The translations under genes were made by a program, and so were the position numbers. From a virus: a DNA stretch of 31,379 nucleotides. Below are positions 1 through 23,175 of the stretch, piece after piece. Positions within the stretch are counted from its first letter, which is position 1, and each line of letters begins with the position of its first letter. The notes below the pieces were generated by a model that saw only the letters and a list, made by a program, of their open reading frames with translations, made no database searches and was not told where the DNA came from. The DNA is taken from the IMG/VR virus record IMGVR_UViG_3300034045_000008, positions 1 through 31,379 of that record; one strand, 5' to 3'.

Positions 1-1110
1 CCATTCCCTGATAAGAAACTACCTTTCGTTATTGTACATTACCTGCCTGTACGTAAATCAAATTATGGTGAGCCTGATGGCGTTCTACTAGAAGATAACC
101 AGAAAGTAGCTGGTGCAGTAATTCGTGGGATGATTGACTTATTGGGTAAATCCGCTGCAGGCCAGAAAGGTTATGCTAAGAATTCACTGGATTTAGTTAA
201 TAAGCGTAAATTTGAAGCTGGTTTAGACTATGAGTATGAACCTACTGTAACTAATCCAGAACAAGTATTCTTTATCCATAAGTTCCCTGAGATCCCTGCA
301 TCTGCTCAATACATGTTGGATCTACAGAATGAAGATGCTGACTCTCTAACAGGCGTAAAAGCCTATAGCAGTGGTATTAGTGGTAATGCATTAGGTAGTA
401 CTGCTACAGGCGTTAGAAGCGCTCTAGATGCTGCTAGTAAGCGTGAACTAGGTATCTTACGTAGATTGGCACAAGGCTTAGTAGAAGTAGGCCGTAAATT
501 CATTAGTATGAACGCTGTCTTTCTAAGTGAGGAAGAAATAGTTCGTGTAACTAATGATGAGTTCGTACCTATCCGTAAAGATGACTTAGCAGGTAATATA
601 GATTTAGCTTTATCAATCTCTACTGCTGAAGCAGATAACCAAAAAGCAGAAGAACTTGCCTTCTTATTACAGACATCTGCACAAGCAATGCCTGAGGATT
701 TCAGTCGGTTGATACTGGCTGAGATTGTTAAATTACGTAAGATGCCAGATTTGGCTAAGCGTATTGAAGAATATCAACCACAACCTGATCCAATGCAAGA
801 GATTGCTATGCAAGAAGCTAAATTACGTATTGAGCTACTTAAATCAGAAATTGTGGATAAACAAACACAAGCTGAATGGAATGCTGAACGTGCTAAGACA
901 GAACGTGCTAAACAAGCTAACCTATACAGCGATACTGACTTAAAAGACTTAGATTATCTAAGCAAAGAAACAGGCGTTGACCATGTTAGAGAGCTTCAAA
1001 AAGAAGCTCTCAAGCAATCAATGTCAAATAAAGGCGAAGCAGGTAGACCTGCAACAGGTGAAAACACTGATGATAGTACTAGTACTTACAACGGTATATC
1101 ACAAGTTTAA
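1..1110 (+). CDS. Portal protein, C-terminal part (N4 gp59-like), cut by window edge
   Basis: The frame is open from base 1 to the TAA at 1108-1110, so this is the last ~369 residues of a longer protein; the ATG at 130 is an internal methionine. In N4 the portal is about 760 residues and forms the dodecameric ring through which DNA is packaged and ejected and on which the tail assembles. The visible part has a helical core with a Gly/Ser/Ala-rich stretch near 360-430 (GISGNALGSTATGVRSALDA) followed by long helices, then a charged Gln/Glu/Lys-rich helical tail (about 780-1020), as is common at portal C-termini. It lies directly upstream of scaffold and capsid genes, which is where N4-like phages place the portal. 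Identification rests on this context and overall character; I could not align it. No cysteine is seen in the visible part. Confidence 0.8.
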   Translation, partial: PFPDKKLPFVIVHYLPVRKSNYGEPDGVLLEDNQKVAGAVIRGMIDLLGKSAAGQKGYAKNSLDLVNKRKFEAGLDYEYEPTVTNPEQVFFIHKFPEIPASAQYMLDLQNEDADSLTGVKAYSSGISGNALGSTATGVRSALDAASKRELGILRRLAQGLVEVGRKFISMNAVFLSEEEIVRVTNDEFVPIRKDDLAGNIDLALSISTAEADNQKAEELAFLLQTSAQAMPEDFSRLILAEIVKLRKMPDLAKRIEEYQPQPDPMQEIAMQEAKLRIELLKSEIVDKQTQAEWNAERAKTERAKQANLYSDTDLKDLDYLSKETGVDHVRELQKEALKQSMSNKGEAGRPATGENTDDSTSTYNGISQV

Positions 1111-4671: not shown

Positions 4672-5757
4672 ATGGCTCAAATAGATATTACAGAGATCAT
4701 CTCAGCAGATCAGGACAATCCAGGCTCATTTGAGAGCATTATGACGGCTGTTAGTACGTACCTAGAGGCAGAGTTTGATAAAGGCCGTATAAAAGCCCCA
4801 GACTACGCCAAAGTGTACTTATCTGCTATGGAGGCTGCTTTACAGCAGTCTCTTGCGTTTGCTTTACAGAAACAACAAGCAGATAAACAAGCCGAACTAC
4901 TGGATGCCCAACGTCGTCAAGTAGAGAAAGAAATAGAGAAACAAGACGTTGAGATTGCAGTTCTTAATAAGCAGTCTCTTAAAGTAGACGAAGAAATAAC
5001 ACTACTTCAGAAACAACAGCTACAGACTGATGCTCAAACCACTAAACTAGATGCAGACAAAGATCTAGTATTAGCCAATATTACTAAGATCAATCCAGAG
5101 ATTGATTTAATCAATGCACAGAAAGACAAGACAGCGCAAGATCGTTTACTCGGTGTAGCAAATGAACAACTTACTTTAGCTAAAGTAACTGAATCGGTTA
5201 AGATGTTGGATAAAATTGATGCTGATATTTCACAAACTACAGCCAATATTTCTCTCATCAATGCTAATGCTACTACTGAAGGTAAGAAAGCAGATAAGCT
5301 AGTAGCTGATACCGCTCTTACTAACCAACAAAAAGACAATTTAGCGCAAGCACTACTCAAAGATATTGAGGAAACTAACTTAATTATTGCTAAGACAGCC
5401 CAAGCTAACCAAGAAGCTGCTGTACTAGTGGATCAACAAAATAAATTAAGAGCTGAGAAAGACTTAATAGCTCAGAAGAAACTAACTGAAGAAGCCCAAG
5501 TAGCTGACACACTAAGCACAGGTAGTCCAGTTGCTGGTGTATTATCAGCACAGAAAGATATATATAAAGAACAAGCAGCTACCTTTGTGCATAATAAGAA
5601 GTACAAAATGGCTAAGCTGGCTGCTGATGTATTCTCTATGCAGTTATCAGCTAATCCAACATCGCCTATACCTAGTGCGTTAAGTGAGTTATCACAAAGT
5701 GCTATGATTACAGACGCTGCAGCTAATGCTGATATTACTTTACCCTCTACACCATAG
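4672..5757 (+). CDS. Long coiled-coil virion protein (N4 gp54-like position)
   Basis: 361 residues. From about residue 55 to 290 the sequence is nearly continuous helix with heptad/hendecad-like periodicity and repeating alternation of Asp/Lys with Leu/Ile/Ala (for example LLDAQRRQVEKEIEKQ, KADKLVADTALTNQQKDN, LRAEKDLIAQKKLTEEAQ), so an elongated coiled coil or trimeric/tubular assembly is likely. The C-terminal 50 residues are Ser/Ala/Pro-rich. N4 carries a virion protein of about 30 kDa (gp54) at this position. The protein lacks cysteine, as do all later products of this strand. The start ATG has AGGATAAG about 11 bases upstream, a weaker spacing than its neighbours. The next gene starts eight bases after its stop. 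Function as an internal or tail-tube protein is inferred. Confidence 0.7.
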   Translation: MAQIDITEIISADQDNPGSFESIMTAVSTYLEAEFDKGRIKAPDYAKVYLSAMEAALQQSLAFALQKQQADKQAELLDAQRRQVEKEIEKQDVEIAVLNKQSLKVDEEITLLQKQQLQTDAQTTKLDADKDLVLANITKINPEIDLINAQKDKTAQDRLLGVANEQLTLAKVTESVKMLDKIDADISQTTANISLINANATTEGKKADKLVADTALTNQQKDNLAQALLKDIEETNLIIAKTAQANQEAAVLVDQQNKLRAEKDLIAQKKLTEEAQVADTLSTGSPVAGVLSAQKDIYKEQAATFVHNKKYKMAKLAADVFSMQLSANPTSPIPSALSELSQSAMITDAAANADITLPSTP

Positions 5758-5765
5758 GTAAATAA

Positions 5766-7895
5766 ATGGGTATATTTAGTAGTAAGACTATAATCACAAC
5801 GGCTGTGAGTACATCACAGCTACGTGATCCAAAGAAAGCAATGACATTAAAGCAAACCATGCTTAAAGCTACATTGCTTGAAAAGGATATAGTCGAGTCA
5901 CTTAAAGACTACGTCTTTACAAGTGCTGCTAAAAAAGCCCAAGTGTACTACTCACAGGGCGTAAATAACCCAGTAATAGGCCAACCTTCAGGTATTTCTG
6001 CAGGTATTGGCCTATATTCTTTCCCTACAGTAGACATAGTACAGCCTATTATAGAAAGTATAGTAGGTACTCCTATGACTATTATTGGTATGCGTGTTAC
6101 TTACTTTGATAAGTCTGCGCGTATGGCTTGGGTCAGGGCAAAGGCCTTTGAACAAGGTATGTTAAATGAATACAATGGTCTTTATAATATCCCTGGCATA
6201 GGTAGCGATTATTCTCTAATAGACGCTGATCTTACTTATGACGAATATGCTGTTAAGGCACAATTCAGAAAATCCCAAGATAGTGGTGCTTCTGTTTATT
6301 TTAATTTTGCTTTACCAGACCGATTTGATGAATACAGCCCTTATTACGTAGTTACTTACCATAGGGCGAATGATGTTCGGAGATTGCCTCTTACATGGGT
6401 ATATCCTGCGAATACTTCCGAATATCCTGAATTATCTGCAGAGATAATAGATGGTAAAGAATTCGGTAATACTCTCTTTCCAGTAGTTCCCATTATTATC
6501 AATAAGACTGAAGTAAAAGAATCAACTTACCCGGATGAGAAAGCTGCAGCGGATAGTTTACTTCGTATCAGTGGCTTACAAGATATTGAGACATTCATAG
6601 AACTGCTCAAATCTAACGAAAATTATGCTGACGTAGACGATGCTTTCATTATGTTTGGGGCAGATTTGAGGGACATAAAAGAGGTATATGTAGCAGAGTA
6701 CTTATACAAATTCTTCGATGTGTTGAAAGAACAGTCAGTGCTATCGAAAGAAATGTTTGAGTCTTCATTGGCTAACGATCCTCCTAAAGGAGTACCGCCT
6801 AGACTAAACAAAGTCCTAATTAAAGATAAAGAATTCAACGTTACATTGGCTTATCACTACATTACACATGAAGTGATAACAGGTACAGGTGCAGGTAATG
6901 CGTGGTATTTTTACGGTAATGAATATGCTGCTAGTACATTTGAATCACCTGAATATGAAGTGGGTGTAGCAGGCAGTGATAATAACGTATTTTTAGAGGA
7001 TACCGAACTTGTACTAAGGAAACGCATAGATGATGATTCTTATCACGAAATAAGAGTCAGAGGCCTAGTACATAGTACCTTTGTGTATAACAGCCGTACT
7101 TTAGTAGATAGGTCAATTAACCATTTAAGGAATGATGATTACCAGGGCGGATTCTTTATACCCATAGATAAATCCATTATGGATACTATGAGTGCTGAAA
7201 ACCGTGAGAAGCTGATAATAGGTGCTGCTTCTCTTGTGGTTTATGCTATTCATGTAGAGACATTGAAATGGTATCAGAATCCTGACTTTTGGTTAATCGT
7301 ACAAATAGCTATGATAATAATAGCCTTATATACGGGCTATGTTGACTTCACCGCTATCTTAGCCAAACAAGGTGTACAGGAAGCTATCAAGCAAGTTGTT
7401 ATTTCATTAATTACTAACTATGCCTACACCCAGATAGCTCTTTATATAGCCAATATGGTGAGCCCTGAGTTATTTATTTATGTAGCTGCTGCATTAGCCT
7501 TATACGGTGTATTGGGTACTGATGCGATATTCTCTAAACCACTACTAGATTTACCACTAGCTACTGACATAATGAAGATAGCTGCAGTATTCCCAGACCA
7601 AGCCAATCGAGTCATAAATAAGAAGAAAGAAGAACTTGAGCGTGAGATGTCTGAATATACTAAGTCGGCTAAAGAATGGCAGGAAGAGATAGAGAACGCT
7701 GCAGCTATGCTGTCGCCATTGGAAGGTGTTGACTATTATGACATAATTAAAGAACAGAAAATATACATTGAAGACGTAGATGTTTTCATTGCTCGTACCA
7801 CTGGTATAACTGATTTTGACGAACTATTGATAGATCAGATTGATAACTATGTCGAGAACAAATTAGATTTATATAACAACACACTAGTTGTATGA
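5766..7895 (+). CDS. 709-aa virion structural protein with hydrophobic segments
   Basis: A large protein without recognised enzyme motif, between the coiled-coil protein and two smaller internal-protein genes; N4-like phages have a structural protein here (gp53 region). The first ~480 residues are mixed alpha/beta. Residues about 505-526 (FWLIVQIAMIIIALYTGYV) and about 549-590 (LITNYAYTQIALYIANMV followed by LFIYVAAALALYGVLG) are strongly hydrophobic and could be two to three membrane-spanning helices. The end (about 620-709) is charged helix. Membrane-insertable segments in a virion protein suggest a part in forming the ejection channel through the host envelope (inference). No signal peptide and no cysteine. 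ATG with AGGT seven bases upstream; its stop TGA overlaps the ribosome-binding site of the next gene. Confidence 0.7.
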   Translation: MGIFSSKTIITTAVSTSQLRDPKKAMTLKQTMLKATLLEKDIVESLKDYVFTSAAKKAQVYYSQGVNNPVIGQPSGISAGIGLYSFPTVDIVQPIIESIVGTPMTIIGMRVTYFDKSARMAWVRAKAFEQGMLNEYNGLYNIPGIGSDYSLIDADLTYDEYAVKAQFRKSQDSGASVYFNFALPDRFDEYSPYYVVTYHRANDVRRLPLTWVYPANTSEYPELSAEIIDGKEFGNTLFPVVPIIINKTEVKESTYPDEKAAADSLLRISGLQDIETFIELLKSNENYADVDDAFIMFGADLRDIKEVYVAEYLYKFFDVLKEQSVLSKEMFESSLANDPPKGVPPRLNKVLIKDKEFNVTLAYHYITHEVITGTGAGNAWYFYGNEYAASTFESPEYEVGVAGSDNNVFLEDTELVLRKRIDDDSYHEIRVRGLVHSTFVYNSRTLVDRSINHLRNDDYQGGFFIPIDKSIMDTMSAENREKLIIGAASLVVYAIHVETLKWYQNPDFWLIVQIAMIIIALYTGYVDFTAILAKQGVQEAIKQVVISLITNYAYTQIALYIANMVSPELFIYVAAALALYGVLGTDAIFSKPLLDLPLATDIMKIAAVFPDQANRVINKKKEELEREMSEYTKSAKEWQEEIENAAAMLSPLEGVDYYDIIKEQKIYIEDVDVFIARTTGITDFDELLIDQIDNYVENKLDLYNNTLVV

Positions 7896-7905
7896 GGTAA
7901 AGAAT

Positions 7906-8400
7906 ATGGCAGACAAAAAAGATTATAACGACATCCTTGACCCTGATGTCAAAGTGTCAGAGTGGTTATTTAAAGGTAATGGTTTTGAAACGCTAGGTAG
8001 AATAGGTACTGGAGTAAAAAGTGTATTTGATTTATACACTGGATTAAAAGGTTTAGGGCTTGCCCAAGAAACTTTTGATTACAATAAGAAATTAACCAGT
8101 ACTAACTTAGCTAACCAAGCTACATTAATTAACGCTACAAACCAAGATAGGTATACTCAATTGGCTTCTTGGCTAGGTGCTGACAGAGCTAAAGAAATGT
8201 ATGGTGATATGAATACGTATCTACAAAACCATAATGTTGCTACAGACATCAACGGCACTAAACCTACTGTTAATACTAATAATACTAACCAACAGCCTAC
8301 AGATACCTACACGAAGCTAGGCAGTATTGCCAGCTCTAAGAAAGCAGCTCCTAGAAGCTCTGCTGCTTATAATGCACTAAGTAAATTCGGTAGAATTTAA
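7906..8400 (+). CDS. 164-aa internal virion protein (N4 gp52-like position)
   Basis: I start it at the ATG at 7906 because GAGGT (7894-7898), overlapping the previous stop codon, stands seven bases before it; a longer reading from TTG at 7888 has no ribosome-binding site. The N-terminal half is amphipathic with Gly-rich segments (GRIGTGVKSVFDLYTGLKGL), the middle is Asn/Thr/Gln-rich and low in complexity (about 115-135), and the end is basic Ser/Ala-rich. N4 gp52, a virion protein of about 16 kDa, has the same place and size. No cysteine. It is probably co-packaged with the polymerase; exact function unknown. Confidence 0.7.
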   Translation: MADKKDYNDILDPDVKVSEWLFKGNGFETLGRIGTGVKSVFDLYTGLKGLGLAQETFDYNKKLTSTNLANQATLINATNQDRYTQLASWLGADRAKEMYGDMNTYLQNHNVATDINGTKPTVNTNNTNQQPTDTYTKLGSIASSKKAAPRSSAAYNALSKFGRI

Positions 8401-8406
8401 GGAGGT
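8399..8406 (+). promoter_or_regulatory. Very strong Shine-Dalgarno overlapping an upstream stop codon
   Basis: AAGGAGGT overlaps the TAA of the 164-aa gene and ends four bases before the ATG at 8411. It is the best ribosome-binding site of the + strand block and argues for high, possibly coupled, translation of the 570-aa protein. Confidence 0.75.
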
Positions 8407-8410
8407 TCTC

Positions 8411-10123
8411 ATGGCAGTTATACCAACATGGCAAAACGTAGGTAAATTAGATGTACGAGACGTAGCCCAATTAATGCAAAGTAGTGCAACAAGAGCTTCA
8501 CAAGGCTTAGGTGGATTAGCTAACTTAGCTGCTACTACTGGTGAAGAATTGCGGGCAGATCGTGTAGCTTCTGTACTCAATAAAGCGGCACAAGTGGATA
8601 CAGGACAAGAAGTACTAGATAACTACGATAACTTTACTGATGCTGAGAAGATCCTCCAGCAAGCAGATGGCTATATAGACAATAAAGACATTGGCAGTAT
8701 ACAGAAGGCTTTTAAAACCCAAGCCACTAACGTAGTAGACAAAGCGTTATATAACAACACCGCTAAATTCTTAGCTGACCCAAATACTACAGGTACTTTA
8801 GATGGTGCTCTAAAGGCTAGAGATGCCATTCTTAATAATGTACAGGTATTCGGTAATGTGGCTTCTAAAGATGCTGTAGAAAAGGCAACTGGTAATGTTG
8901 AATTACTGAACAAATTATCTACAGGTTATTTAACATCTACCGTAGGTAATGACATATATGAAGATGTATTCAGTGCTGTTGATACTGTACAGCAAGCCAC
9001 AGGTATCCCTATCTCACTAGATCAGAAAGGCAATATCAATATGGCTGGCTTAACTGAAGCAGAGATACAGAAGGTTAGTAGTTACTTGGCTGGTCACAAA
9101 GATTTAGCACAGCAAATGAAGTCGGTAACTAAAGAAACTTTTATTGATAACTACGCTAATAGACTACTACAAGAAGCTAGTAGCAAAGGTATACCTATGG
9201 ATAAAAATGTTGCGTACAGCCAGGCGACACAATATTACGATACAAATATTGCAGCTAGACGCCAAGAACATGTACTAAAACAAGCGCAACTTAGACAACA
9301 AATTACTCAACAAAATCCTGAAGTAAATACAGTACAGACTTACATTGAGCAAGCAAAGACTAAGGCAGCTTTAGCGCAGCAGAAACTACAAGCCTATAAA
9401 GAAAGTGTTGAGTCGCTACACGGTATTACCGAAAAGCGCAGTATTTCTGGTATGGCTGAAATAATGAAAGAAGTAGCCAAAGAGTCTGGTAAAGACTTCG
9501 GTGAATTAAACGGTTATTTAGGCTCTAACAATAACGAAGTTGCTCCACGCCTATATAGTATATTGAGTAGTACCTTTGAAGCAGAGTTGGCTACAGGTGA
9601 GAAAGTGGTAATAGACTTTGCTAAAGATACTTCATTAAATGCTCTGAAAATAGCATTAGCTCAAGCAATTAACCCCGAAAAGGATGGTGAGGGTAACTAC
9701 GATATAGCTAGCGATAAATTCAAAGAGACCTTGGCTCAAGCCATACTTCGTGAAAAAGCTGAGTACATGCGAGCTGAGGCTGAATACACTGTATATAACC
9801 AGAGCGCTACTAAGCTATCTGGCATATTAAACGGCTTCCTTAGAAATAACACAGTAGACCATAAAGGTAGACATGTTATTCTTAATGTAGAAGAGGCACA
9901 ACAAGCTCAGTTTGCTCTTAAGCAAACAGCATTACAGCCTATAGACTTATTAGCGCAATCAGATCCTGCTCTACAGGAAGCACGAGCCAAGGCAGATAAG
10001 TTCTTAGAAGCTAGTCAGAAGATAGGCAAAGGTAATCCTAAAGATGACCTCCCTGAAGATGGAAAACTTACAAATGACCAGAGACTTGAAGAAATGTGGC
10101 GAAACCTTTCCTATATCTACTAG
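8411..10123 (+). CDS. 570-aa helical internal virion protein (N4 gp51-like position)
   Basis: A soluble, largely alpha-helical protein rich in Ala, Gln, Lys and Asp, without signal peptide or transmembrane segment. Residues about 280-340 (QEHVLKQAQLRQQITQQNPE and on) and 430-470 are good coiled-coil candidates. It sits immediately before the virion polymerase gene, as N4 gp51 does, and like all its neighbours on this strand it has no cysteine. Helical Ala/Gln-rich proteins at this place in podoviruses are typically internal or ejected proteins; that role is inferred. The gene is followed by a strong intrinsic terminator before the polymerase gene. The start is set by the AAGGAGGT just upstream. 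Confidence 0.72.
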   Translation: MAVIPTWQNVGKLDVRDVAQLMQSSATRASQGLGGLANLAATTGEELRADRVASVLNKAAQVDTGQEVLDNYDNFTDAEKILQQADGYIDNKDIGSIQKAFKTQATNVVDKALYNNTAKFLADPNTTGTLDGALKARDAILNNVQVFGNVASKDAVEKATGNVELLNKLSTGYLTSTVGNDIYEDVFSAVDTVQQATGIPISLDQKGNINMAGLTEAEIQKVSSYLAGHKDLAQQMKSVTKETFIDNYANRLLQEASSKGIPMDKNVAYSQATQYYDTNIAARRQEHVLKQAQLRQQITQQNPEVNTVQTYIEQAKTKAALAQQKLQAYKESVESLHGITEKRSISGMAEIMKEVAKESGKDFGELNGYLGSNNNEVAPRLYSILSSTFEAELATGEKVVIDFAKDTSLNALKIALAQAINPEKDGEGNYDIASDKFKETLAQAILREKAEYMRAEAEYTVYNQSATKLSGILNGFLRNNTVDHKGRHVILNVEEAQQAQFALKQTALQPIDLLAQSDPALQEARAKADKFLEASQKIGKGNPKDDLPEDGKLTNDQRLEEMWRNLSYIY

Positions 10124-10148
10124 TTTGCGAGCTTAAATAAGGTATTAT

Positions 10149-10177
10149 AATAAGACCCTAACGGGTCTTATTTTTTT
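10149..10177 (+). terminator. Intrinsic terminator between the 570-aa gene and the virion RNA polymerase gene
   Basis: AATAAGACCC, loop TAAC, GGGTCTTATT then TTTTT: a perfect ten-base-pair stem and a seven-T run (10171-10177). It lies 25 bases after the stop codon and about 20 bases before the polymerase ATG. I see no convincing promoter between it and the ATG, so polymerase mRNA may depend on read-through. Confidence 0.88.
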
Positions 10178-10197
10178 AATTAGTATAGGTAACAGCT

Positions 10198-13100
10198 ATG
10201 AATGATAACAAAGATTTTAGTGAACCTAGTTCTACAACTCCCCAAGTAACAGAAACTAGCGTACCAACACCAAGCCTAGATGCATTCAACCCAGTGAATC
10301 AATCTAACTCGATACTACCTGATGTACAACCAGAGTCTAATACCCTACTAGGTAAAGCAGAGGCTGTACAACAAGCATCACAACAAGCAGTCTCTTCAAC
10401 AGGTATAGACGCTACCGTTAAGCGTATGTATCAGCAGGTCGATCAATTCTTGGCTTCACAAGGCATAGACCCATCCGCATTAACAGTTGATGAAAAAGCT
10501 GATGTCTTTCGTAGCATGAATGACAAAGAGACTGCATTAAAGTTAGCAAGTGCTAAGAAAGAAATTAACGCACGTCTTAAATCAGATTTAAAAGTACTTG
10601 AAAGAACACGTTCTCGTTTTGGTGATGAAAAAATAAAAGACACTGCAGTAGTTGCAGGTGGGGTTGCTAACAAAGCAGTACACAGTATTTACGCTACAGC
10701 AGACTTCCTAACTAGATTAGGTACAGCCAAGTTAGGTGATGATAATATTTTTGTTGCTATAGCTAAAAATAACCCTCTTCTAAATGCAGATGAGTTTGCT
10801 ACCCGTATAGGTGAGGTACTAACAGGGAAATATAGCAATGACAATAACCCGTTAGCTAAGAAAGATTTTAAATTGGGTAAAGGACTAGACCCAGTAGTAG
10901 AAGCAGTTACTGGCTATAACCCTGTAGACGTATTCAAGAGTATTGACCAAGTACTGTATCAGAACTCTTCCCCCATCCATCAAGAAGCTATGGATGCAGG
11001 TGCAGTATCTTTACAGAAAATAGACGCAGGTGCTAAACAACGTAAAGAGGTATACGCTAGATTATCTGGACTAGATCCAGATAATTTAGAGGACAAAGCC
11101 AAATTAGAAGTTATGGATTACATGTATAGCTTTGTTGAGGCTATCAAAGCTAACTTAGATAATCCAGAATTCCTAGCTACACAATCTGCGCTTACCTTAG
11201 GTGACTTAGCAGGTGGTGGTTTAGTAGGTAAAGCAACTAAGCCTATTGGTGCTCTATACGCCTCAAAACATCTGTTACCTAAGATAAAAGAATCTGAAGA
11301 GATGGCTAAGTACTTCAGACCTTTTATCGAGAAATACAAAGATGATATTTACCCACTATTCCTTGAATCAGCAGAAACCATGGCTGAAAAAGGAGCTAAG
11401 ATAGACTTTAACATCTATAACCTATTGAGCGATCTACCTCGGGAACGACAACTAGAAATAATACGGGATTACCGCGAGATACAAAAACACTTGGGTCATA
11501 ACCCAGTGCAGAAAAAGCTGGATGATCGTAAACGTGTAATTGCTGAACAAGCCGCTGCTACTGCTAAAGCAGAGCAACAAGCTGCAAACGTAGGTTCACT
11601 TGTTGGTTTATCGGCATCATCTGCTTACTCTAATGCTAATGAAGCTGTAGAAGAGTTAATGAAACTTCCTATGAGTACGTTTCTTGAGTCTGACTACGCT
11701 AAGGCATTATCTGAACAAAATCCAGACGCTACTCCAGGAGAGTTATTGCAGATAGCTGCAGAGCAGGTAAGAGAAACTACCTATAACCTAGTATTCGCGT
11801 CATCACTTCTATCTAACTACTTTACAGGTGCTGCAAATGTTGTAGGTAAAGCTGTTGGTGGTAAAGGCGTTAAATTACCTGAAGGTACTGGAGCTGTATT
11901 TAAAGAACCTTTCCAAGAAGCTATTGAAGGTACTACAGAACAGCTATCTAAAAACTACGCTTTACAAACACATGGCGATGAAAATAAAGAACTGTTTGAA
12001 GGAGCAGGTACTAACGCAGGTGCATCAGCTATTGCTGCTTTTGGTTTTACTGGAGGTACTGCTGCAGTAGTAGGAGCACCTAAAGCACTAGAGACAGGAG
12101 CGAATATAGCTAAGTCTGCTGTAGGTATGTTCGTTACTAAATCGGCTACAGACAAAGATACAGACCAAGCCAAAAATATTCGTAATGTTATAGCGAATCA
12201 TTCATTTGACCCAGAGTCTCTAAATAAAGACAAGAATAAAAAACCTATCCCAGGTGAAGCTCCTCCACAAGAACCTGTACAAAAGACTCCTAAAGAAATT
12301 CGTAAGGAGCAATTACAACGGGCAATAGAAAAAAGAGATGTTTCTGAATTAACTACATCTGAGCATGTTAAGCCTGAAGAAGTAGTACGTACTGTAGCTA
12401 AAATAGTCAGAGACCCGAAGGCTACAGTGGAAGAGAAATATAACGTAATCCACCAACTAACTGCCTATGGCTCTGCATTGTCTTTGGTTAATATGTCTTA
12501 TGAGAATAAGCTAAAAGAACTGAAAGAAAATAAAGACCCATCTAAACAAAAGCAGTTACGTGAAGAACTTAAAGGACTTAAAGCAATTAACGATAGTGTT
12601 AATGCTGTTAAAGCTCATATCTATAAAGTAGTTACTGATGGTAAGAAAACCTTCAGTAAAGACGAATTAAAAGAAGCTATTGTTAGTAGTATTACTCGTA
12701 ATACTAAGAGTAAGGCAGAAAGCAAAAATGCTGTAGTGCGTCTAATGGCGGCTGTAGCCAATAATGATATAGAACTAACAGAAGAAGACATTACCCGTAT
12801 AGCCAATGACCCTAATAATAACCTCACTCGTGAGGATTTAATGAAGGCCATAAGTTATGCGAAAATTAAAGATGTTAACGAACTAGTCGGTAAAACCGCA
12901 GGTAGTGTAAGAGATAACATCCTTAATGGTAATGCTAACTTTGTTGGTTTACGTCAATATAACGATACTATCATCGGCGCATTAGCACTGAATGATCAAT
13001 ACGCATTAACGAATGCTGTAAACCAATTCAATAAATTCAAAGAAAGTCACAACAAGAAAGCTGAAGGCGCTAAGAAAATACTCAGTATTCTTGATCGTGC

Positions 13101-16100: not shown

Positions 16101-19100
16101 GTCTAAGGCTATCCAACGATTCTTAATCGGTGTTGCCCAGTCTCTAGGCGTTAAAACAGACCAAAAAGAGTATGAAGTTATACGAGATGAATTAAACCAA
16201 TTAGTTAATAATTCGTCCGTTAAAGATGCGCTAGAGTCTCTGAGAGCTATCAATAACGCTCAACCAGGTTCTTTAACTGATGAAGAGATACAGCAACATA
16301 CTAACAATATAGCTGCTGTTACCACGTCGGAAGAAAAGACATTTACACTGGAAGGTCTTTATAACTACATGGTATTCCAAGATGCTGTAAATAGTGGGGC
16401 TAAATCAGTCGAAGTAGACATGTCTCGTGAGGATGATGGTAGAACTAATGGCTCAGCCTTATCACAACTATACTACACAACCGAACATTTACTTGATGAA
16501 GACGGTGGGGTTAATCCTTACATAGCTAAAGAATATAACCGTTTTGGTATTTTCTTCAAAGGGCAGTTATTCGATAACTACGTGCAGTACAGAAATGGCA
16601 AACCTTCACCAGCTAAAATAACTTCTGTAAGAGAACTCACAGAAGACGAAAAGAAAGAAGCTGGTTTGGGTGTACGTGGTGAAGACAAGTACGAAGGCAC
16701 TGCTCGTGAAGCATTTAACATACTAAATAACTTACTTAAATACGGCGTAATGGCCGCTAAGCTAGTTAAGAACGCGTCAGGTTTATTTACCTTAGATGAA
16801 GAAATACCATCTAAAGCCAAAGATGAGTTAGATACTCGTTTAGATGCTCTTAGGGAAAATAAACGGCCATTAATTAAGTATGATAATGGATTAATCTTAG
16901 GCATCGTTTCTTTATTTGGTGATCTAGTAACAGGTGAGGGCAAAGATACTGAAGTTACTTCTGATGGACGTAAAATTAGTAAGAACCCTACTGTACAAGG
17001 TAGTTATGCTGCTGGCTTAACTGCGATGCAACGTAGTGCAGTAAGTACCGCTATTGAAAAAGCAGTGGGTGCTTTACTTAGCGATGATAAAAGCGATGCT
17101 TTGGTTGCCTTAGAAAATTACGTAAAAGAAAATCAACTAGGTGAGTTATTCGTTAAAGACGAAGAGAACTATAAAAAGTTAGTTGAGTTGTTACGAGAAA
17201 CAGGTGTTTCTAATGATCTACTTAATTATCGAAACCCTACGTTAGATTTAACACTGAATCTAGATCTAAAGATACCTGTTAAATACTACAGATATGATAA
17301 GCGTAAAGACGGTTATGTCAGTTATGATACCACTATTACGCTTGGTGGAGCTATCAAAGGTATTATGGGTGCTGCGATTGCAGGTGGTGTAAAAGGATCT
17401 AACGCATCTATTGAAACAGGCGCAACTGCTGTAAAAGATATGACTATCACTGCTGCCCTAACGTATAAAGCATTATTTGATGCTGCATACAATGAAGCAA
17501 TCGAGAAGAAACGTAAGTTATTTGGTAATGCAAGCAAAGCATACAAAAAACTATTTGCCCTTACTCAGCAAGAAGAACAAGAGATTTACGATAAAATCGG
17601 GATACCTCCAGAGTTCTTGACACCTATGGCAGATAAAGAAGGCCATGGTGTTTCTTATGCACGTATAAGTAAGCAAGATAGTTCTGCTAATCCAGACAAT
17701 AATCTGTCTTTCGCTACGCAAGCACTTCGTAATACCGCTGATGTAACTAATGAATATGTGCTTGATGAAAATGGTGAGATAGTTACTCGTCCAAGATCTT
17801 TAACCAATAAGGGTAAAGGTTATGACGAATCTATGGATACCGCTAACATGACTCTCGAAGAGCCTGGTGTAGCTGGTCTCCCTGCTAGTATTATTAGTCG
17901 TGATGCTTCTATATTAGGTAATGCTGTACTATCTGCAGACAAAAAAGGCTTAGGCTTCTTGCCTCTACATGATGCTAATATCGCAGGTACTGGCATTATC
18001 CATAGAATCACTAAAGGGTTTAACCGTGCTATGTTTAGTGATGCTATTAAGTCTCACCCAGCAGCACAGATATTCCTACTTAATCTACGGAATTTTTACC
18101 TATTAACTGAAGCTATTTCTGAGAACCCATCAATGGATATAACACCATTGTTGTTTGATTCTCATAATAGACTAGCCACAATGCCTGAAAGCATTAAGAA
18201 AGTGGACAAGAACCCTATAAAAGAATTCGACTCTCTTGCATTATTTATACAAGAAACTGCACATAATCTGCTTGAAAAAGACATCGAAAAGAACCCAGAA
18301 CTTAATGCTGGGGAAATGCGGTCAAATATGGCTGTAGCATTCTCAGCAATCGATACGCAAGATGTGTCTGCTTACAGAGGTCTAGCTACTAAGCATCCAG
18401 AAGTAATTAAGTACATAAATAGAGCTTACCTGATAATGGCTAAGCATGAATTACAAGTCAATAAAGAACTAGTAGAGAAAATGGATAACATCACTAAAGA
18501 GGCGCTGAGTATTATCAATACTATGGGTAACTACTACAACGAAGAAGGCCTATATAACGCCACAGCAAGAGATGCTAAAACTACTAGTAAAGGCGGTAAG
18601 AAAGTACCTAGAGTTCTGGATAAGTACGAAGATCGTGCAGCTACAGAACAAGAAACTAATAAGGATATTGAAAATAAACCAGCGCAAGTACTTCCTGAGG
18701 ATAAGCCTACAGCATCTGGTGTGTATGCTTCTCTACTACAAGCAGAGAATGCGCAGGAAGCCTTAGAACACTTAGCTGAGCTACGTAAATTATGGGCTAA
18801 CGCTACTGATGGTAGAATAAATAAAGTAGTTACAGCTTTCTTTAAAGCCCTCTCTAGGGATCGTGCTGATATAAAAGAGTTATTAACAAATACCAAAATA
18901 GTATTTGGTACTACACCACACGGCGCAAATGCCTCTGTATCGTTCAATAACGGTGTAGCTACAATAACTATCAATGATAAGCTACAAAACCCTGAGATTG
19001 TCGCTGAGGCGCTCTCACACGAGATTACTCACGTTATCATTGAGAATGCTCTTAATAAGGCGATGTCTGACAAAGCAACTCCTGAAGAAGAGGCTTTGGT

Positions 19101-22100
19101 TAATGAATTACATGAGTTAATGAATACCGCACAAGCAGCAGCAGATGCATCTGGTTTCCGTTACAGTAACCACTTCGATAACTTACATGAGTTCGTTACT
19201 TGGGCAATGACTAGCCCTACATTCCAAAACTTCTTAGATGGAATACCACACAAACCTGACAATGCTCTAATCAAGGGTGTTAAAAATATTAAGAATGCTT
19301 TACCTACCCAGTTACGTTCGTTACTGGATAAGTTATTTGGTGTATTTAATAAATTGATAGGGCTTGGTACAAATGGTAGCGCCTTACGGTCTGTATTAAA
19401 AATAGGCGCTACTCTAGCAGTGAATCAGGATTTAGAACAATCAACTGATTCAGTTGTACGTAACCAAGAAACTATTGATGGTATTGTGTTTGATCGGTCT
19501 ATCCAAATTACTCGCATGAACTCAGAGCAAGTATTTGATAGCTTGGCTTATATTGATAATAGAGCAGTAACCCAAGAACACTCAACACACTTGAAAACAG
19601 TGCTACGTAACATAACCAATAAGATACTAGAACCTACCCAAATTTCTGTATCTACTACTAACGTAGGGACAAATGGTTATTATCTAACTAATGCGCAAAA
19701 AGTAGAGTTGTTCATGCATGACGATAACTCTCCTAATGAGCAGTTAGGTATGGTGGTTGCTCCATTCAATATGTCTATGCAAGAGAACTATGTCTATAAC
19801 TTGACTAGACTGTCTCTCCATACAGCCCTCAGCAATAAGCCTGACTTATACAAACAAGCAGATAAAATCTATGGTGAGATCATGGAGGAGCTAACTCCGC
19901 AAGACTTCCTAGATGTGTCTAATGGCGTTGGTTTAGATGAAGCTAATCGTATGCTTAATGTATTGCGAAATATTTCAATTACATCTGAAACAGAGACACA
20001 CGATGATTTAACTAAGTTGGATTACACTACGGTTGATTCTAGGTTCTTGGCTGACTTCATGGCATTGGCTACTACTAATGAGACTATGCGTAATGCAATT
20101 GATAAAGCACAAGCCCGTATAAATGAACGAGCTAAGCAACCTAAGCCATGGAAAGAACGTATCATTGATTTCGTGCTCAAGGCACTAGATTTCTTATATG
20201 GTGTTTATTCAGGTAATCTACGTATAAACCAAATAAAAGATAGCGCTAGTATTGATAACTTAGTTACTGCATTAGCTCGTACAGAGGTAACCAATAAATA
20301 CTCTTTAGAGAAAGCGGCTCAAACTAGTATCGGTATGTTAGTTACAGCTACTCAAGTAGGTATAGATGTAGTGACTAAAGTAGCTAAAAGTACAGGTAGA
20401 TTAGTCGGTAATCCTAGAGAAGGCAGTAAGTTAGATACTGTAGTCAAGGGTGTAAGAGGTGCAGCAGACCTAGTAACTTCAGGTCAGGCAGTTCCTATGG
20501 TTAATAAATTACTTGATCAAATGTTAGGTGACTCTTTTAATAAGAAGCCTGGTATTCTTAACTCTATCTTAGATGAATTTGCTAAACCTAGCAGAAGTGT
20601 TGCTAAGATCCAAGCATTGCTAAGGCTATCTAACCGTACTATTGAGACTAAACGTAAAAACGTAGCAGATTCTATCCACAAAATAGTTAAGTCTTCTTTC
20701 TTAACTCCTTTAACCAAAGGACATGAGATTGCTCTTAATCTACTGACTAAGATAGACGCACATCAATTAACTAAGGTTCATGGTGAACAGACTGTTATTG
20801 ATTGGATCACTAACCCAGCTACTAGAGCTAACAGTAAGCAACAAGCTATTACGGATATAGGCAATATCCTTACACCGTCATTAGCTAACTATGTTATCAA
20901 TAGTGCTTTGAATTTAGGCCAGTTCTTAAACACTAATTTAAATAGAAGCTCTAAGCCAATACATTTCAATGCCCTTAAAATAGTAGAAAGCATTGATAAT
21001 ATATTCTCTTCAGCAGAGATAGCTGCGATGAAACAAGATCCAGCTATGGCACAACAATTACGTACTATTCAAGCTGAAATAGCTGTATTCAAGCGACGTG
21101 TTGCTAGTGATCCTAATACATTACAGGATTTAGTTAAACATGTGGATACTCTGGTTTCACTAGAAACATTGAATACTGCTAGGGAAGTTGATTTACAGAA
21201 CTTAGCGGATATTGTGAATAAAGAGTACACTGCAGACTCGCAGGAAAACGGTATTACTGCGTTTATGGGTGTTAGTAACACTGTTGCTAATAAGCAAGGC
21301 GAGTATCGCTTTGGTGGTAACCCTCACCCTATTGTTAGATTTACTGATATGCCTAAAGGTTTCCATAAGAAAATCTACACACCTTATAAGAGCCATAAAC
21401 TTGTAATGCTTAAAGTAGGTGAAACCATTGACGAGTACATCAATGACAACAACATCAAAGCAGTAGAATCAGCACAAGAAATACAGTTACCTGATTACTT
21501 GGCTAATAAGGGTAATAAAGCCTACTTAATTAATATTGCTGATGGTGGTTTACCTACATTCCAAGCAGGTGTCTTGTCTACTGCCGATACCACTGCTAAA
21601 CAGGTATTTACTCAAGAAGGCATCGAGACTGACTTACGCGCAATGGAAGGCGTTAATTTACAGGATGTAGCTAGTACATTACCTGATACTATGGATTTAT
21701 TTAATCAAGTTGGTTTACCTACCAATAAAGTAAATCTTATAAGAGATCCAGTCACAAACAAAGTACATATACCTATCCCAGCTAATGTGCTCTCAGAAGC
21801 TCGTGACGCTGTTGAAAGCGGTATACGTATGTTATCGGTCACTGGTGGTGATGTCGTCAACGTACAAGGCACTAAGGAGGTCAATGAGAAAGCCATAGAT
21901 GCAATGCTTGAGGAGTACAACTCAGAATACCTAGATCACCCAGAGGATTTCGTGTTTGTAAGTAACATGCACACAGACCCTGAAATTAGGGAATTCTGGA
22001 ATACCTTACCTGAACAAACTAAAGACTACATGCGCTCTAAAGGACACATATTCCAGTATCAGGGTAGAGATGTAGAAGGTCTGTTTGTACCTAAAGCAGT

Positions 22101-23175
22101 ACTTTACACTATGTTTGGTCAACGTAAGTTACATCCTAAGAACTTGTATGACTTACCGATAGAAGATCAAAAACTAATCATTCAAATGATTCGTAAAATG
22201 ATTGGCGGTATGACTAAGCTGTACAATGCATTCAATAAGAATAGTGAACCTTTAGATGAACTAATGTTAGCTACTAAGGGATTTACAGCATTGACTGAAT
22301 TAACATCGTACATTAAATCTACCGTAGTTGTTCGTTTTATGAATGTAATGATAGTGAACGTACTAAGTAACACGGCTCATTTGATATTCGTTAAGAATAT
22401 TCCAATTGCTAGAGCCATTAAGTACCAGGTAGATGGTTATATTCATGGTTACGATTACTTACTTAAAGAACGTAAGATACGTGAATTGATGCTTAAACAC
22501 GATGCTGTACGTGACCCTGCAGAGAAACAAAAACTACGTAATGAAATTAAACGTATGCAGGTATCTATGTCTAAGTCACCTGTACATCATTTGATAGAGC
22601 GTGGGTTACTACAAACTATCATAGAGGACGTAGAACAAGCAGATGAAACCAATGACTATAACCAAGGTATTGATCATTGGATTTCTTCAAAAATTGACGA
22701 GAAACTCACTAAAGAGAATTCACGTAAATTTGCCCATGAGTTACTGATGACTCAACGCTCTACTTCATACAACGTACTGCATCACTTTGTACAGTTAGGT
22801 GACTTTGCTTCACGTTACGCTTTAATAACTGAAAGCACACGTAAAGGACAAGACCTAAATGAGGCAATACAAGAGGCTGTATTTGAGTTCATTGACTATG
22901 ATAGACCTACCCATAAGCTAATCATGTTAGCAAATGACACTGGCTTATTATGGTTTACTCGATACGCTTTTCGTATACAGGCGGTGTTACTTAATAATTT
23001 ATTACGAGATCCCGCTAGAGTGATAATGTTCTTGTTATTGCAAGAAGGAGTTGATGTAGATGCACCAGATCCGTATGACAGTAGTGTACTCCATGGTGGT
23101 GTATTTAATACTGTGGGAGGTGTTGACAGATACATCAATGGTTTGACTACACACCCAGCATTATGGGCGTTCTAG
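10198..23175 (+). CDS. Giant virion-packaged single-subunit RNA polymerase (N4 gp50-like vRNAP), 4325 aa
   Basis: In N4 this protein (about 3,500 residues) is packaged, injected with the DNA, and transcribes early genes from hairpin promoters. The catalytic signature is present here: TSFGR at 1920-1924 (TxxGR), motif A D2080-G2081 in DDGRTNG, motif B R2258, K2262 and Y2270 (spacing 0-4-12, the same as T7 R627/K631/Y639), and motif C H2591-D2592 in PLHDAN. Before the core lie an N-terminal helical region, a Gly/Ala-rich stretch (about 605-628), a disordered Pro/Thr/Lys/Glu linker (about 1058-1127) and a coiled coil (about 1148-1245). After it come an HEITH metallopeptidase-like domain (2941-2945, E2998), a probable degenerate copy of it (about 3100-3360), and a C-terminal region with hydrophobic segments (about 4036-4075). 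The whole chain has no cysteine. In N4 the N-terminal part aids DNA injection and the C-terminal part packaging. The ATG has only a weak AGGT upstream. Confidence 0.95.
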   Translation: MNDNKDFSEPSSTTPQVTETSVPTPSLDAFNPVNQSNSILPDVQPESNTLLGKAEAVQQASQQAVSSTGIDATVKRMYQQVDQFLASQGIDPSALTVDEKADVFRSMNDKETALKLASAKKEINARLKSDLKVLERTRSRFGDEKIKDTAVVAGGVANKAVHSIYATADFLTRLGTAKLGDDNIFVAIAKNNPLLNADEFATRIGEVLTGKYSNDNNPLAKKDFKLGKGLDPVVEAVTGYNPVDVFKSIDQVLYQNSSPIHQEAMDAGAVSLQKIDAGAKQRKEVYARLSGLDPDNLEDKAKLEVMDYMYSFVEAIKANLDNPEFLATQSALTLGDLAGGGLVGKATKPIGALYASKHLLPKIKESEEMAKYFRPFIEKYKDDIYPLFLESAETMAEKGAKIDFNIYNLLSDLPRERQLEIIRDYREIQKHLGHNPVQKKLDDRKRVIAEQAAATAKAEQQAANVGSLVGLSASSAYSNANEAVEELMKLPMSTFLESDYAKALSEQNPDATPGELLQIAAEQVRETTYNLVFASSLLSNYFTGAANVVGKAVGGKGVKLPEGTGAVFKEPFQEAIEGTTEQLSKNYALQTHGDENKELFEGAGTNAGASAIAAFGFTGGTAAVVGAPKALETGANIAKSAVGMFVTKSATDKDTDQAKNIRNVIANHSFDPESLNKDKNKKPIPGEAPPQEPVQKTPKEIRKEQLQRAIEKRDVSELTTSEHVKPEEVVRTVAKIVRDPKATVEEKYNVIHQLTAYGSALSLVNMSYENKLKELKENKDPSKQKQLREELKGLKAINDSVNAVKAHIYKVVTDGKKTFSKDELKEAIVSSITRNTKSKAESKNAVVRLMAAVANNDIELTEEDITRIANDPNNNLTREDLMKAISYAKIKDVNELVGKTAGSVRDNILNGNANFVGLRQYNDTIIGALALNDQYALTNAVNQFNKFKESHNKKAEGAKKILSILDRARKLALERGANPQQNIALKVSEVSPELQQELDAAIQEHLSDGFRSEGRTVTGYNSVFSKKQRDTLNNIIEEANILNKFEQRTNKMIDEYFNKPKDTQQTQDKAPETQSETTTQTEAKDTKKETKAPEKAPESTKQESKPTDTKANEEASDKPKETVSNLTKLGDEELDAIPNNATKHIENVSGSLESSQQKLNSTQKAIKENQRELDALSKKIDSLSKSAKPSKKATKALIEAKKAHKEIVLETKELRESAQRLKRTIKQNKRKLKEAKEQYIKNEQVKQNAKDLGIDVDAMRQDIDEALKDTNDTDGSKMTARIMYTLAKGLDKYVAKIKELKDKGNYSMAELMDLEHKLNKFVHNLFVGTNGVFTKIAELNIPEEVKKAVSSKLAKDVFDLVSFHHAALKPSKNSHKLLINKLRKAGIDLNNITYEKDGQIFFTDEVKEVFREQLYGKDGDFTRNDKVLLSQLATFMHKFQKSFNELTDSAGASKFTLKNPIAEFLFDQNFSESKRGEFSIAMAIASFNYIATQGRTTLYKDKLTRIGILDATQETYDLLRAIDPAFSKRADKIFSEVGVPMEDVADSIYQATMDILGLKPDNNVATLALIEGLKKSIGRSAINVMTGMTYPHRDSQGNVTQVPLVSKDQVDMRVFNPTWYSKPTDNKELNKILKAFKDNSVLISTVDRLYHIAKKVGKVNKNILKSLSLQEQANIIRAVQPGSKVKATKESLNKAINSLTAREMQQIFSVLNLLDKNPQIVKTYLNEYTAPFRDPHTDAKVYPHKHTRTFINFAGFEQTVDDVTRVDLIEPLDNIAEAHKSAKKTLSTLVSNDPDGSLLDEDKAPRTEPLDDSQLPTNKLRSNSKVSAKERKVLSVLNKQAYVVRDYMSHMLDVLGRGFFYAVEGVKVGEELVEVPASEIDAHKANAQRLSRVLDVYDEMRSTFDEEGNPTNWYFTHLVTSFGRYQMNQQPFNPQTDKLARHLVRHNMWRQKLTLRRRRKDGSNALIESKAIQRFLIGVAQSLGVKTDQKEYEVIRDELNQLVNNSSVKDALESLRAINNAQPGSLTDEEIQQHTNNIAAVTTSEEKTFTLEGLYNYMVFQDAVNSGAKSVEVDMSREDDGRTNGSALSQLYYTTEHLLDEDGGVNPYIAKEYNRFGIFFKGQLFDNYVQYRNGKPSPAKITSVRELTEDEKKEAGLGVRGEDKYEGTAREAFNILNNLLKYGVMAAKLVKNASGLFTLDEEIPSKAKDELDTRLDALRENKRPLIKYDNGLILGIVSLFGDLVTGEGKDTEVTSDGRKISKNPTVQGSYAAGLTAMQRSAVSTAIEKAVGALLSDDKSDALVALENYVKENQLGELFVKDEENYKKLVELLRETGVSNDLLNYRNPTLDLTLNLDLKIPVKYYRYDKRKDGYVSYDTTITLGGAIKGIMGAAIAGGVKGSNASIETGATAVKDMTITAALTYKALFDAAYNEAIEKKRKLFGNASKAYKKLFALTQQEEQEIYDKIGIPPEFLTPMADKEGHGVSYARISKQDSSANPDNNLSFATQALRNTADVTNEYVLDENGEIVTRPRSLTNKGKGYDESMDTANMTLEEPGVAGLPASIISRDASILGNAVLSADKKGLGFLPLHDANIAGTGIIHRITKGFNRAMFSDAIKSHPAAQIFLLNLRNFYLLTEAISENPSMDITPLLFDSHNRLATMPESIKKVDKNPIKEFDSLALFIQETAHNLLEKDIEKNPELNAGEMRSNMAVAFSAIDTQDVSAYRGLATKHPEVIKYINRAYLIMAKHELQVNKELVEKMDNITKEALSIINTMGNYYNEEGLYNATARDAKTTSKGGKKVPRVLDKYEDRAATEQETNKDIENKPAQVLPEDKPTASGVYASLLQAENAQEALEHLAELRKLWANATDGRINKVVTAFFKALSRDRADIKELLTNTKIVFGTTPHGANASVSFNNGVATITINDKLQNPEIVAEALSHEITHVIIENALNKAMSDKATPEEEALVNELHELMNTAQAAADASGFRYSNHFDNLHEFVTWAMTSPTFQNFLDGIPHKPDNALIKGVKNIKNALPTQLRSLLDKLFGVFNKLIGLGTNGSALRSVLKIGATLAVNQDLEQSTDSVVRNQETIDGIVFDRSIQITRMNSEQVFDSLAYIDNRAVTQEHSTHLKTVLRNITNKILEPTQISVSTTNVGTNGYYLTNAQKVELFMHDDNSPNEQLGMVVAPFNMSMQENYVYNLTRLSLHTALSNKPDLYKQADKIYGEIMEELTPQDFLDVSNGVGLDEANRMLNVLRNISITSETETHDDLTKLDYTTVDSRFLADFMALATTNETMRNAIDKAQARINERAKQPKPWKERIIDFVLKALDFLYGVYSGNLRINQIKDSASIDNLVTALARTEVTNKYSLEKAAQTSIGMLVTATQVGIDVVTKVAKSTGRLVGNPREGSKLDTVVKGVRGAADLVTSGQAVPMVNKLLDQMLGDSFNKKPGILNSILDEFAKPSRSVAKIQALLRLSNRTIETKRKNVADSIHKIVKSSFLTPLTKGHEIALNLLTKIDAHQLTKVHGEQTVIDWITNPATRANSKQQAITDIGNILTPSLANYVINSALNLGQFLNTNLNRSSKPIHFNALKIVESIDNIFSSAEIAAMKQDPAMAQQLRTIQAEIAVFKRRVASDPNTLQDLVKHVDTLVSLETLNTAREVDLQNLADIVNKEYTADSQENGITAFMGVSNTVANKQGEYRFGGNPHPIVRFTDMPKGFHKKIYTPYKSHKLVMLKVGETIDEYINDNNIKAVESAQEIQLPDYLANKGNKAYLINIADGGLPTFQAGVLSTADTTAKQVFTQEGIETDLRAMEGVNLQDVASTLPDTMDLFNQVGLPTNKVNLIRDPVTNKVHIPIPANVLSEARDAVESGIRMLSVTGGDVVNVQGTKEVNEKAIDAMLEEYNSEYLDHPEDFVFVSNMHTDPEIREFWNTLPEQTKDYMRSKGHIFQYQGRDVEGLFVPKAVLYTMFGQRKLHPKNLYDLPIEDQKLIIQMIRKMIGGMTKLYNAFNKNSEPLDELMLATKGFTALTELTSYIKSTVVVRFMNVMIVNVLSNTAHLIFVKNIPIARAIKYQVDGYIHGYDYLLKERKIRELMLKHDAVRDPAEKQKLRNEIKRMQVSMSKSPVHHLIERGLLQTIIEDVEQADETNDYNQGIDHWISSKIDEKLTKENSRKFAHELLMTQRSTSYNVLHHFVQLGDFASRYALITESTRKGQDLNEAIQEAVFEFIDYDRPTHKLIMLANDTGLLWFTRYAFRIQAVLLNNLLRDPARVIMFLLLQEGVDVDAPDPYDSSVLHGGVFNTVGGVDRYINGLTTHPALWAF
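15955..17973 (+). other. Catalytic core of the virion RNA polymerase, TxxGR to motif C
   Basis: Segment coding residues 1920-2592. TxxGR to motif A is 156 residues, A to the motif B lysine 182, and motif B tyrosine to motif C aspartate 322. These are longer than in T7 (112, 94, 173), as is typical for N4-type enzymes, and the A-to-B gap appears longer even than in N4 (about 111 from memory). The full core, by comparison with the ~1,100-residue N4 mini-polymerase, should span roughly residues 1500-2750. Confidence 0.88.
18720..19430 (+). other. Zinc-metallopeptidase-like domain inside the virion RNA polymerase
   Basis: Residues about 2842-3078. HEITH at 2941-2945 gives two zinc-binding histidines and the catalytic glutamate; E2998 in NLHEFVTWAMTSPTFQNFL is a good third ligand, 53 residues later. 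A beta strand pair (ASVSFNNGVATITIND) precedes the helix, as in gluzincin-type peptidases of large phage polyvalent proteins. Bounds are approximate. Confidence 0.65.

Follow-up and report, generated by a model that had tools for sequence, protein, structure and literature searches.

The stretch of DNA analysed here (the window), a fragment of 31,379 bases from a virus record, carries the structural genes of an N4-like phage as one module. The genes on its plus strand follow one another in the order gp59 (portal, cut), gp58, gp57, gp56 (capsid), gp55, gp54, gp53, gp52, gp51 and gp50, as they do in N4. The other annotated isolates share this order, a few of them with small extra genes; Alteromonas phage PT11-V19, for example, has two of them between gp54 and gp53. 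This gene order and the presence of a giant virion RNA polymerase (vRNAP), of the class of about 3,500 amino acids, place the module in the Schitoviridae (N4-like phages). DNA-level and tblastn searches for close relatives of the window among phage isolates gave no match.

The features are collected in Table 1. The family profile of gp54 matched the DEV tail tube protein gp75 (9bgm, E 1.2e-60) and N4 gp54 (9lc0, E 5e-45), and that of gp53 matched N4 gp53 (9yft, E 5.7e-84) and a DEV-type gp53 (9ze4, E 1.4e-114). Likewise, the gp52 profile recovered a DEV gp52-like protein (8vxq_A, E 2.4e-24) and the 16.5 kDa protein of N4 (9yf4, E 2.6e-14); the length of 164 residues given for this protein is counted from an ATG, and would become 170 from an upstream TTG at 7888. 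For gp51 the profile matches were to DEV gp72 (8vxq_R, E 1.2e-20) and to the 66 kDa protein of N4 (11mn, E 6e-5); an N-terminal TW motif is almost invariant among 23 homologues, and a Foldseek search of the gp51 model against the PDB gave no usable match. The product of the gp50 gene was identified through PHROG 2206, virion RNA polymerase (E 1.4e-230), and through the C-terminal region of the N4 vRNAP structure 9pnr (E 1.3e-10). It is about 825 residues longer than the N4 enzyme (3,500 residues). The PHROG match stops at residue 3613, and only residues 4033-4275 correspond to the N4 C-terminal region, which suggests that extra sequence lies between.

Table 1. Plus-strand features of the structural module in the window, with the basis of each assignment and the number of cysteines encoded
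Feature	Position	Strand	Basis	Cysteines	Remark
gp59 portal, C-terminal fragment	1..1110	+	PHROG 1216	0	
gp58 homologue, 121 aa	1140..1505	+	PHROG 2346	0	
gp57 homologue, 379 aa	1516..2655	+	PHROG 2120 ('tape measure' in PHROGs)	0	probable scaffold
gp56 major capsid protein, 474 aa	2668..4092	+	PHROG 1357	1	
gp55 homologue, 168 aa	4146..4652	+	PHROG 2130 and position	2	
gp54 homologue, tail tube, 361 aa	4672..5757	+	family profile	0	not ejected
gp53 homologue, tail plug, 709 aa	5766..7895	+	family profile	0	not ejected
gp52 homologue, outer-membrane-complex protein, 164 aa	7906..8400	+	family profile	0	predicted to be ejected
gp51 homologue, periplasmic-tunnel protein, 570 aa	8411..10123	+	family profile and synteny	0	predicted to be ejected
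gp50 homologue, giant vRNAP, 4,325 aa	10198..23175	+	PHROG and structure match	0	predicted to be ejected; single unbroken chain

An earlier note on this DNA had pointed out that the five consecutive products from gp54 to gp50 contain no cysteine, and that the capsid and 168-residue proteins do. Both observations are borne out by the codon counts: TGT and TGC are absent in frame from all five genes, 6,129 residues in total. The minus-strand genes encode 32 cysteines in 2,536 residues (12.6 per 1000), a rate at which about 77 would be expected in the five proteins and at which the probability of finding none is about 1.6e-34, a naive estimate that assumes equal rates. Calculated from the position-specific base frequencies of each gene, the expected numbers are 1.0, 8.6, 2.6, 4.9 and 41.4 for the 361-, 709-, 164-, 570- and 4,325-residue products respectively, or about 58 in total. 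Nucleotide or codon bias can be ruled out as the cause, and the absence does not arise at the level of the DNA, because vRNAP genes are rich in out-of-frame TGY: pooled over 20 phages, it occurs at 26 and 79 per 1000 codons out of frame, against 0.01 in frame.

The earlier note went on to treat the five genes as a zone with definite borders that marks a functional set. The zeros are real but the borders are not, since the portal fragment, the 121-residue protein and the 379-residue protein upstream are likewise free of cysteine; so are two minus-strand ORFs (141 and 126 residues). The capsid and 168-residue proteins break the run. The zero of the portal fragment is an edge effect, as the gene is complete in L002, a contig of identical sequence, and there has one cysteine in 735 residues. 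As a marker to be read from one genome the zone was rejected, gp53 and gp54 falling inside it by chance of lineage, and gp57, gp58 and the portal fragment lying outside it and also having none.

A gene-by-gene survey of the window and 19 isolates, Schitoviridae or related, gave a sharper boundary. Cysteine was absent from gp51, gp52 and gp57 in all 20 phages, and from gp50 in 19 of the 20 (one cysteine in 67 thousand residues). It was absent from gp54 in 14 of 20 phages, from the capsid protein in 14 of 19, from gp55 in three of 20, from gp67 in three of 18, and from the terminase (TerL) in none of 17. The portal protein lacked it only in the window, where the gene is a fragment; and the single cysteine-free gp53 among the 20 phages is also that of the window. 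The homologues of gp54 have low but nonzero numbers, and the absence of cysteine from gp58 is unconserved (zero in nine of 20). The pattern was the same in 80 IMG/VR loci found by means of the capsid protein. When these were pooled with the isolates and duplicates removed, gp51 had no cysteine in 37 distinct sequences (19.0 thousand residues) and gp52 none in 55 distinct sequences (9.8 thousand residues), while gp57 had three in 32.5 thousand residues and was cysteine-free in 82 of 85 sequences. For comparison, 63 sequences of gp53 (47.6 thousand residues) contained 139 cysteines in 81 distinct alignment columns, which implies that cysteine was gained many times in this protein. The difference between gp51 plus gp52 and gp53 in the pooled set is significant by Fisher's test at p 4e-29, and that between gp50-52 and gp53 in the isolates at 1e-44, both values being uncorrected for relatedness. 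Apparent cysteines in gp50 of locus L045 and gp57 of locus L021 were discounted: they stand two to five residues ahead of a premature stop, in what looks like the tail of a frameshift. A conserved and near-absolute exclusion of cysteine covers gp50, gp51, gp52 and gp57.

Three of these four proteins correspond exactly to the genes whose products are ejected in N4 and DEV, with gp57 as the sole extra member. Cryo-EM has identified N4 gp50, gp51 and gp52, and DEV gp71, gp72 and gp73, as the ejected set (PMC12633501, PMC10925440); the window has the same genes in the same order, and its gp50, gp51 and gp52 are homologous, by profile matches, to the solved ejected chains of both phages. From this analogy the three proteins of the window are presumably ejected too. 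In N4, by contrast, gp53 is the tail plug, present in full and in empty particles, and gp54 is the tail tube, and both have been modelled in full and in empty tails (PMC12633501). The 709- and 361-residue proteins of the window match the plug and the tube, not an ejected protein. The proposal of the earlier note that the five products are all carried out of the capsid along with the DNA, and that the zero zone marks them, fits the five zeros seen in the window and in one metagenomic relative (L003, as far as it was read), but it sits badly with the retention of both tail proteins in empty N4 particles and with the cysteines found in gp53 homologues in 19 of 20 phages, and we regard it as very improbable. 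What survives of it is the part concerning gp50, gp51 and gp52. The absence of cysteine from gp53 and gp54 here is best explained by drift, in a lineage where both proteins are cysteine-poor anyway. Lack of cysteine can serve as a sequence-only test for ejected proteins, as the note had suggested, at the level of the family but not in a single genome, and gp57 then stands as a false positive.

The protein encoded by gp57 is probably a scaffold. Its gene lies directly upstream of the capsid gene; the protein is charged, with a low content of Trp, Tyr, Phe and Ile; and its AlphaFold2 model is mostly helical with a disordered N-terminal region (mean pLDDT 73). Comparison with T7 gp9, P22 gp8, SU10 gp8 and crAss scaffold candidates gave no sequence match, comparison with solved folds gave none either, and a Foldseek search of the model against the PDB returned nothing usable. 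It might be supposed instead that gp57 is a fourth ejected protein, which would turn the cysteine rule into an exact marker of ejection. Its depth of exclusion is near that of gp51 and gp52, it is named a tape measure in PHROGs, and one peptide of it was recorded from virions of LIT1 (PMC3715699). That peptide amounts, however, to a coverage of 3%, and a footnote to one of the tables in the same paper states that gp57 went unidentified in particles of N4 (PMC3715699); in addition, the scaffolds of T7 and P22 are equally free of cysteine. Given its scaffold-like position and character, a role as an ejected protein appears unlikely.

The same tendency is seen in ejection, scaffold and tape-measure proteins of other phages. 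In P22, gp7, gp20, gp16 and the scaffold gp8 all lack cysteine, as do gp15, gp16, gp7.3 and the scaffold gp9 of T7; T7 gp14 has one, at residue 2. The proteins gp20-24 of SU10 are absent from genome-release particles (PMC9509320), and all of them are free of cysteine (gp24 being counted without its last 31 codons), whereas most other SU10 virion proteins contain it. The gpH tape measure of lambda has none in 853 residues (L105, 10542-13103), and the tape measure of the Gram-positive phage TP901-1 none in 937 (L289, 1139-3952). There are also exceptions: the scaffolds of SU10 and lambda have one cysteine each, a single internal cysteine is present in T7-like gp16 in five of 14 relatives, and in most relatives epsilon15 gp15 contains one or two. 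Exclusion of cysteine from ejected proteins is a strong tendency and no law, as T7-like gp16, epsilon15 gp15 and two unsplit vRNAPs described below make plain.

The most informative cases are N4-like phages in which the vRNAP is divided between genes. In PT11-V19 it is encoded by two genes, and the only two cysteines are at position 997 of 1000 in the first product and at position 6 of 2082 in the second, that is, at the two ends that face each other across the break. Both are kept in Alteromonas phage R22Y (1004 of 1008 and 6 of 2083), whose C-terminal part is 64% identical to that of PT11-V19. A search with the PT11-V19 capsid protein uncovered a sister clade in which two loci spanned the break (L228 and L240, whose contigs are those of L307 and L313), with the same arrangement of facing-end cysteines in different local sequence. 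The parent contigs were then searched with the C-terminal part of the PT11-V19 enzyme, and ten further split vRNAPs were taken from them. Given as length and cysteine position for each piece, seven of these are 972 (C971)/2088 (C5), 969 (C967)/2046 (C3), 920 (C918)/2035 (C4), 994 (C994)/2097 (C5), 1019 (C1017)/2103 (C3), 922 (C920)/2055 (C3) and 951 (C949)/1884 (C3); two are 2128 (C2127)/940 (C3) and 2331 (C2331)/968 (C5); and one is in three pieces, 912 (C910)/1003 (C3 and C1000)/1280 (C6). With those of PT11-V19 and R22Y included, the 12 loci are L099 (27717-36971), L103 (5975-15252) and L307-L316.

In all 12 split enzymes, whether of two or three pieces, every one of the 26 cysteines in 36,790 residues lies no more than six residues from a facing end, and the outer ends have none. 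The facing-end windows make up 0.42% of the residues, so that the naive probability of this arrangement is about 1e-61, a figure inflated by relatedness. The enzymes are nevertheless diverse: their N-terminal parts fall to 22% identity, neither the local motifs nor the reading frames are constant, and cysteine is encoded by TGT as well as TGC. There are three kinds of break, near residue 1000, near residues 2100-2300, and that of the three-piece case; and the spacing between the genes ranges from -7 to +6,492 nucleotides. In L312 (7115-13348, reverse strand) pieces two and three are about 6.5 kb apart, and other genes, which do contain cysteine, lie between them. Sequence error is an unlikely origin for the split genes, which come from 12 genomes (two of them isolates) and vary in spacing, frame and position. 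In the same clade, complete gp51 and gp52 were free of cysteine in eight of eight cases each. Among eight unsplit vRNAPs read together with the split ones, six had no cysteine and two (L322 and L323) a single internal one. The facing-end arrangement is a feature of relatives only; the window itself has an unbroken vRNAP with no cysteine.

It is tempting to suggest that the facing-end cysteines are interchain disulfide staples, which would restore a single head-to-tail polymerase chain for ejection or for assembly. On the strength of the sequence pattern we consider this quite likely; alternatives are that the terminal cysteines belong to a metal site, or act as a packaging or processing signal. 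If the staple is real, it would account for the orderly exit of several polypeptides from the capsid by way of a narrow tube, and for their remaining together in the host; it would also bear on the question whether ejected proteins travel as a single string of beads.

The most probable explanation of the overall pattern is selection against thiols in the ejected proteins gp50, gp51 and gp52, the zeros of gp53 and gp54 being due to drift. The three proteins would be stored in the head and tail, forced through a channel described in the literature as about 35 Å wide, and refolded on reaching the host envelope. Oxidation of a thiol in the threaded chain, which could happen in the released virion or in the periplasm of the host, might produce a loop or cross-link and so block the passage or leave a misfolded enzyme; selection would in this way remove cysteine from all three. 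In a split polymerase the facing ends would be the sites where a bond is wanted, and a bond elsewhere would be harmful. That oxidation is the selective agent is something we infer. The confinement of cysteine to the facing ends of split vRNAPs supports it, being what would be expected if bonds form there. The periplasm can be only part of the cause: gp57 and the scaffolds T7 gp9 and P22 gp8, which never encounter a periplasm, are also free of cysteine, and so is the tape measure of the Gram-positive phage TP901-1.

These same proteins lend some weight to the idea that what counts is mechanical threading, together with storage in an oxidising virion, rather than the periplasm, so that any protein squeezed through a pore would avoid loop-forming thiols. 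The cysteine-free scaffolds, among them the scaffold-like gp57, and the tape measures of lambda and TP901-1 would all be accounted for, and the facing-end cysteines imply oxidation of ejected chains somewhere. Scaffolds, however, exit the procapsid within the reducing cytoplasm, those of SU10 and lambda retain a cysteine, and the tape measures form a sample of two; we take this account to be a real possibility, but not the probable one. An explanation that dispenses with selection on thiols altogether would make the lack of cysteine a by-product of composition, in long, helical, flexible proteins that are poor in order-promoting residues. Relative to other virion proteins gp50-52 are indeed low in Trp (ratio 0.52), Tyr (0.67) and Ile (0.77), and gp57 is depleted in aromatic residues and Ile as already described. 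Yet the ratio for cysteine is 0.00 when that of the next lowest residue, Trp, is only about halved; a single change would turn about 20% of gp50 codons into TGY; and cysteine returns at precise chain ends in the split polymerases. A by-product of composition is in our judgement improbable, and selection against thiols in the ejected proteins remains the preferred reading.

That the N4 vRNAP has no cysteine was known before, as the earlier note said, and the idea of an oxidising periplasm is also in the literature. The observation is credited to Kazmierczak et al. 2002 in passages of PMC3915230 and PMC2784036; a passage of PMC3715699 (2010) proposes transit through the tail and the disulfide-forming periplasm as the reason; and the absence was remarked on again in 2016. 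More recently it counted among the criteria by which a putative vRNAP was named in StenR_269 and the Zobellviridae (2023; PMC10747016). That work resembles ours in taking lack of cysteine as a sign of an injected giant polymerase, and differs in dealing with one protein, without a survey or neighbouring virion proteins. The earlier passages on N4 concern the vRNAP alone, while here gp51 and gp52 are added, the absence is quantified, and gp53 and gp54 are shown to be exempt. The papers on the N4 and DEV ejectosomes do not mention cysteine (PMC12633501, PMC10925440). In the open-access literature searched there was no statement on the absence of cysteine from gp51, gp52 or ejection proteins generally, and no description of split vRNAPs with cysteine pairs. 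What is new here is the family-wide boundary of cysteine exclusion and, above all, the facing-end cysteines. A remark on one enzyme becomes a measurable rule for a delivery cassette, which sets the ejected trio and the scaffold-like gp57 apart from the plug and tube.

The same polarity is seen in two unrelated ejected sets. The RNA-polymerase cargo of crAss001, like the split vRNAPs, consists of virion-borne polymerase polypeptides with conserved cysteines at chain ends: gp47 has cysteine at 2339 of 2341, gp50 at 5 and at 2404 of 2412, with a further one at 1334, and gp49 at 5, so that the ends concerned are the C-terminus of gp47, both ends of gp50 and the N-terminus of gp49, and bonds between them would join the three proteins head to tail (crAss-like loci L107, 16988-39724, L110, L111 and L325-L327). 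In crAss001 the three proteins together have five cysteines in 6,102 residues. The end cysteines are kept in relatives at 97, 69 and 60% identity, and also in Dulem virus 41 and DAC17 at 25-44%; in cr116_1, in the same range of identity, they are largely kept, and an extra piece of the polymerase region has no N-terminal cysteine, so that this phage fits in part. Distant crAss-like polymerase subunits have several internal cysteines, a further exception to the exclusion. Passages of PMC10172136 indicate that the cargo polymerase of crAss001 is thought to be ejected partly unfolded, and describe disulfides for the tail and for the crAss001 portal-vertex protein gp57; the passages found in that paper do not mention the cysteines of the cargo proteins. 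In epsilon15-like phages a cysteine lies six to seven residues before the end of gp16, and another at position 5 or 6 of gp17, in every relative for which both genes were read (L106, 14669-19329, and L112-L187). The former protein ends YSVAAxCFLRNP and the latter begins MKQACxxA, and these are nearly the only cysteines of either protein; the case is weaker because the motif around the cysteine is conserved too. As a separate observation, T7-like gp14 (L101, 8229-8819, and L190-L204) begins MCWxxAIPIA, and its sole cysteine, Cys2, which has no evident partner, is kept in 15 of 15 relatives.
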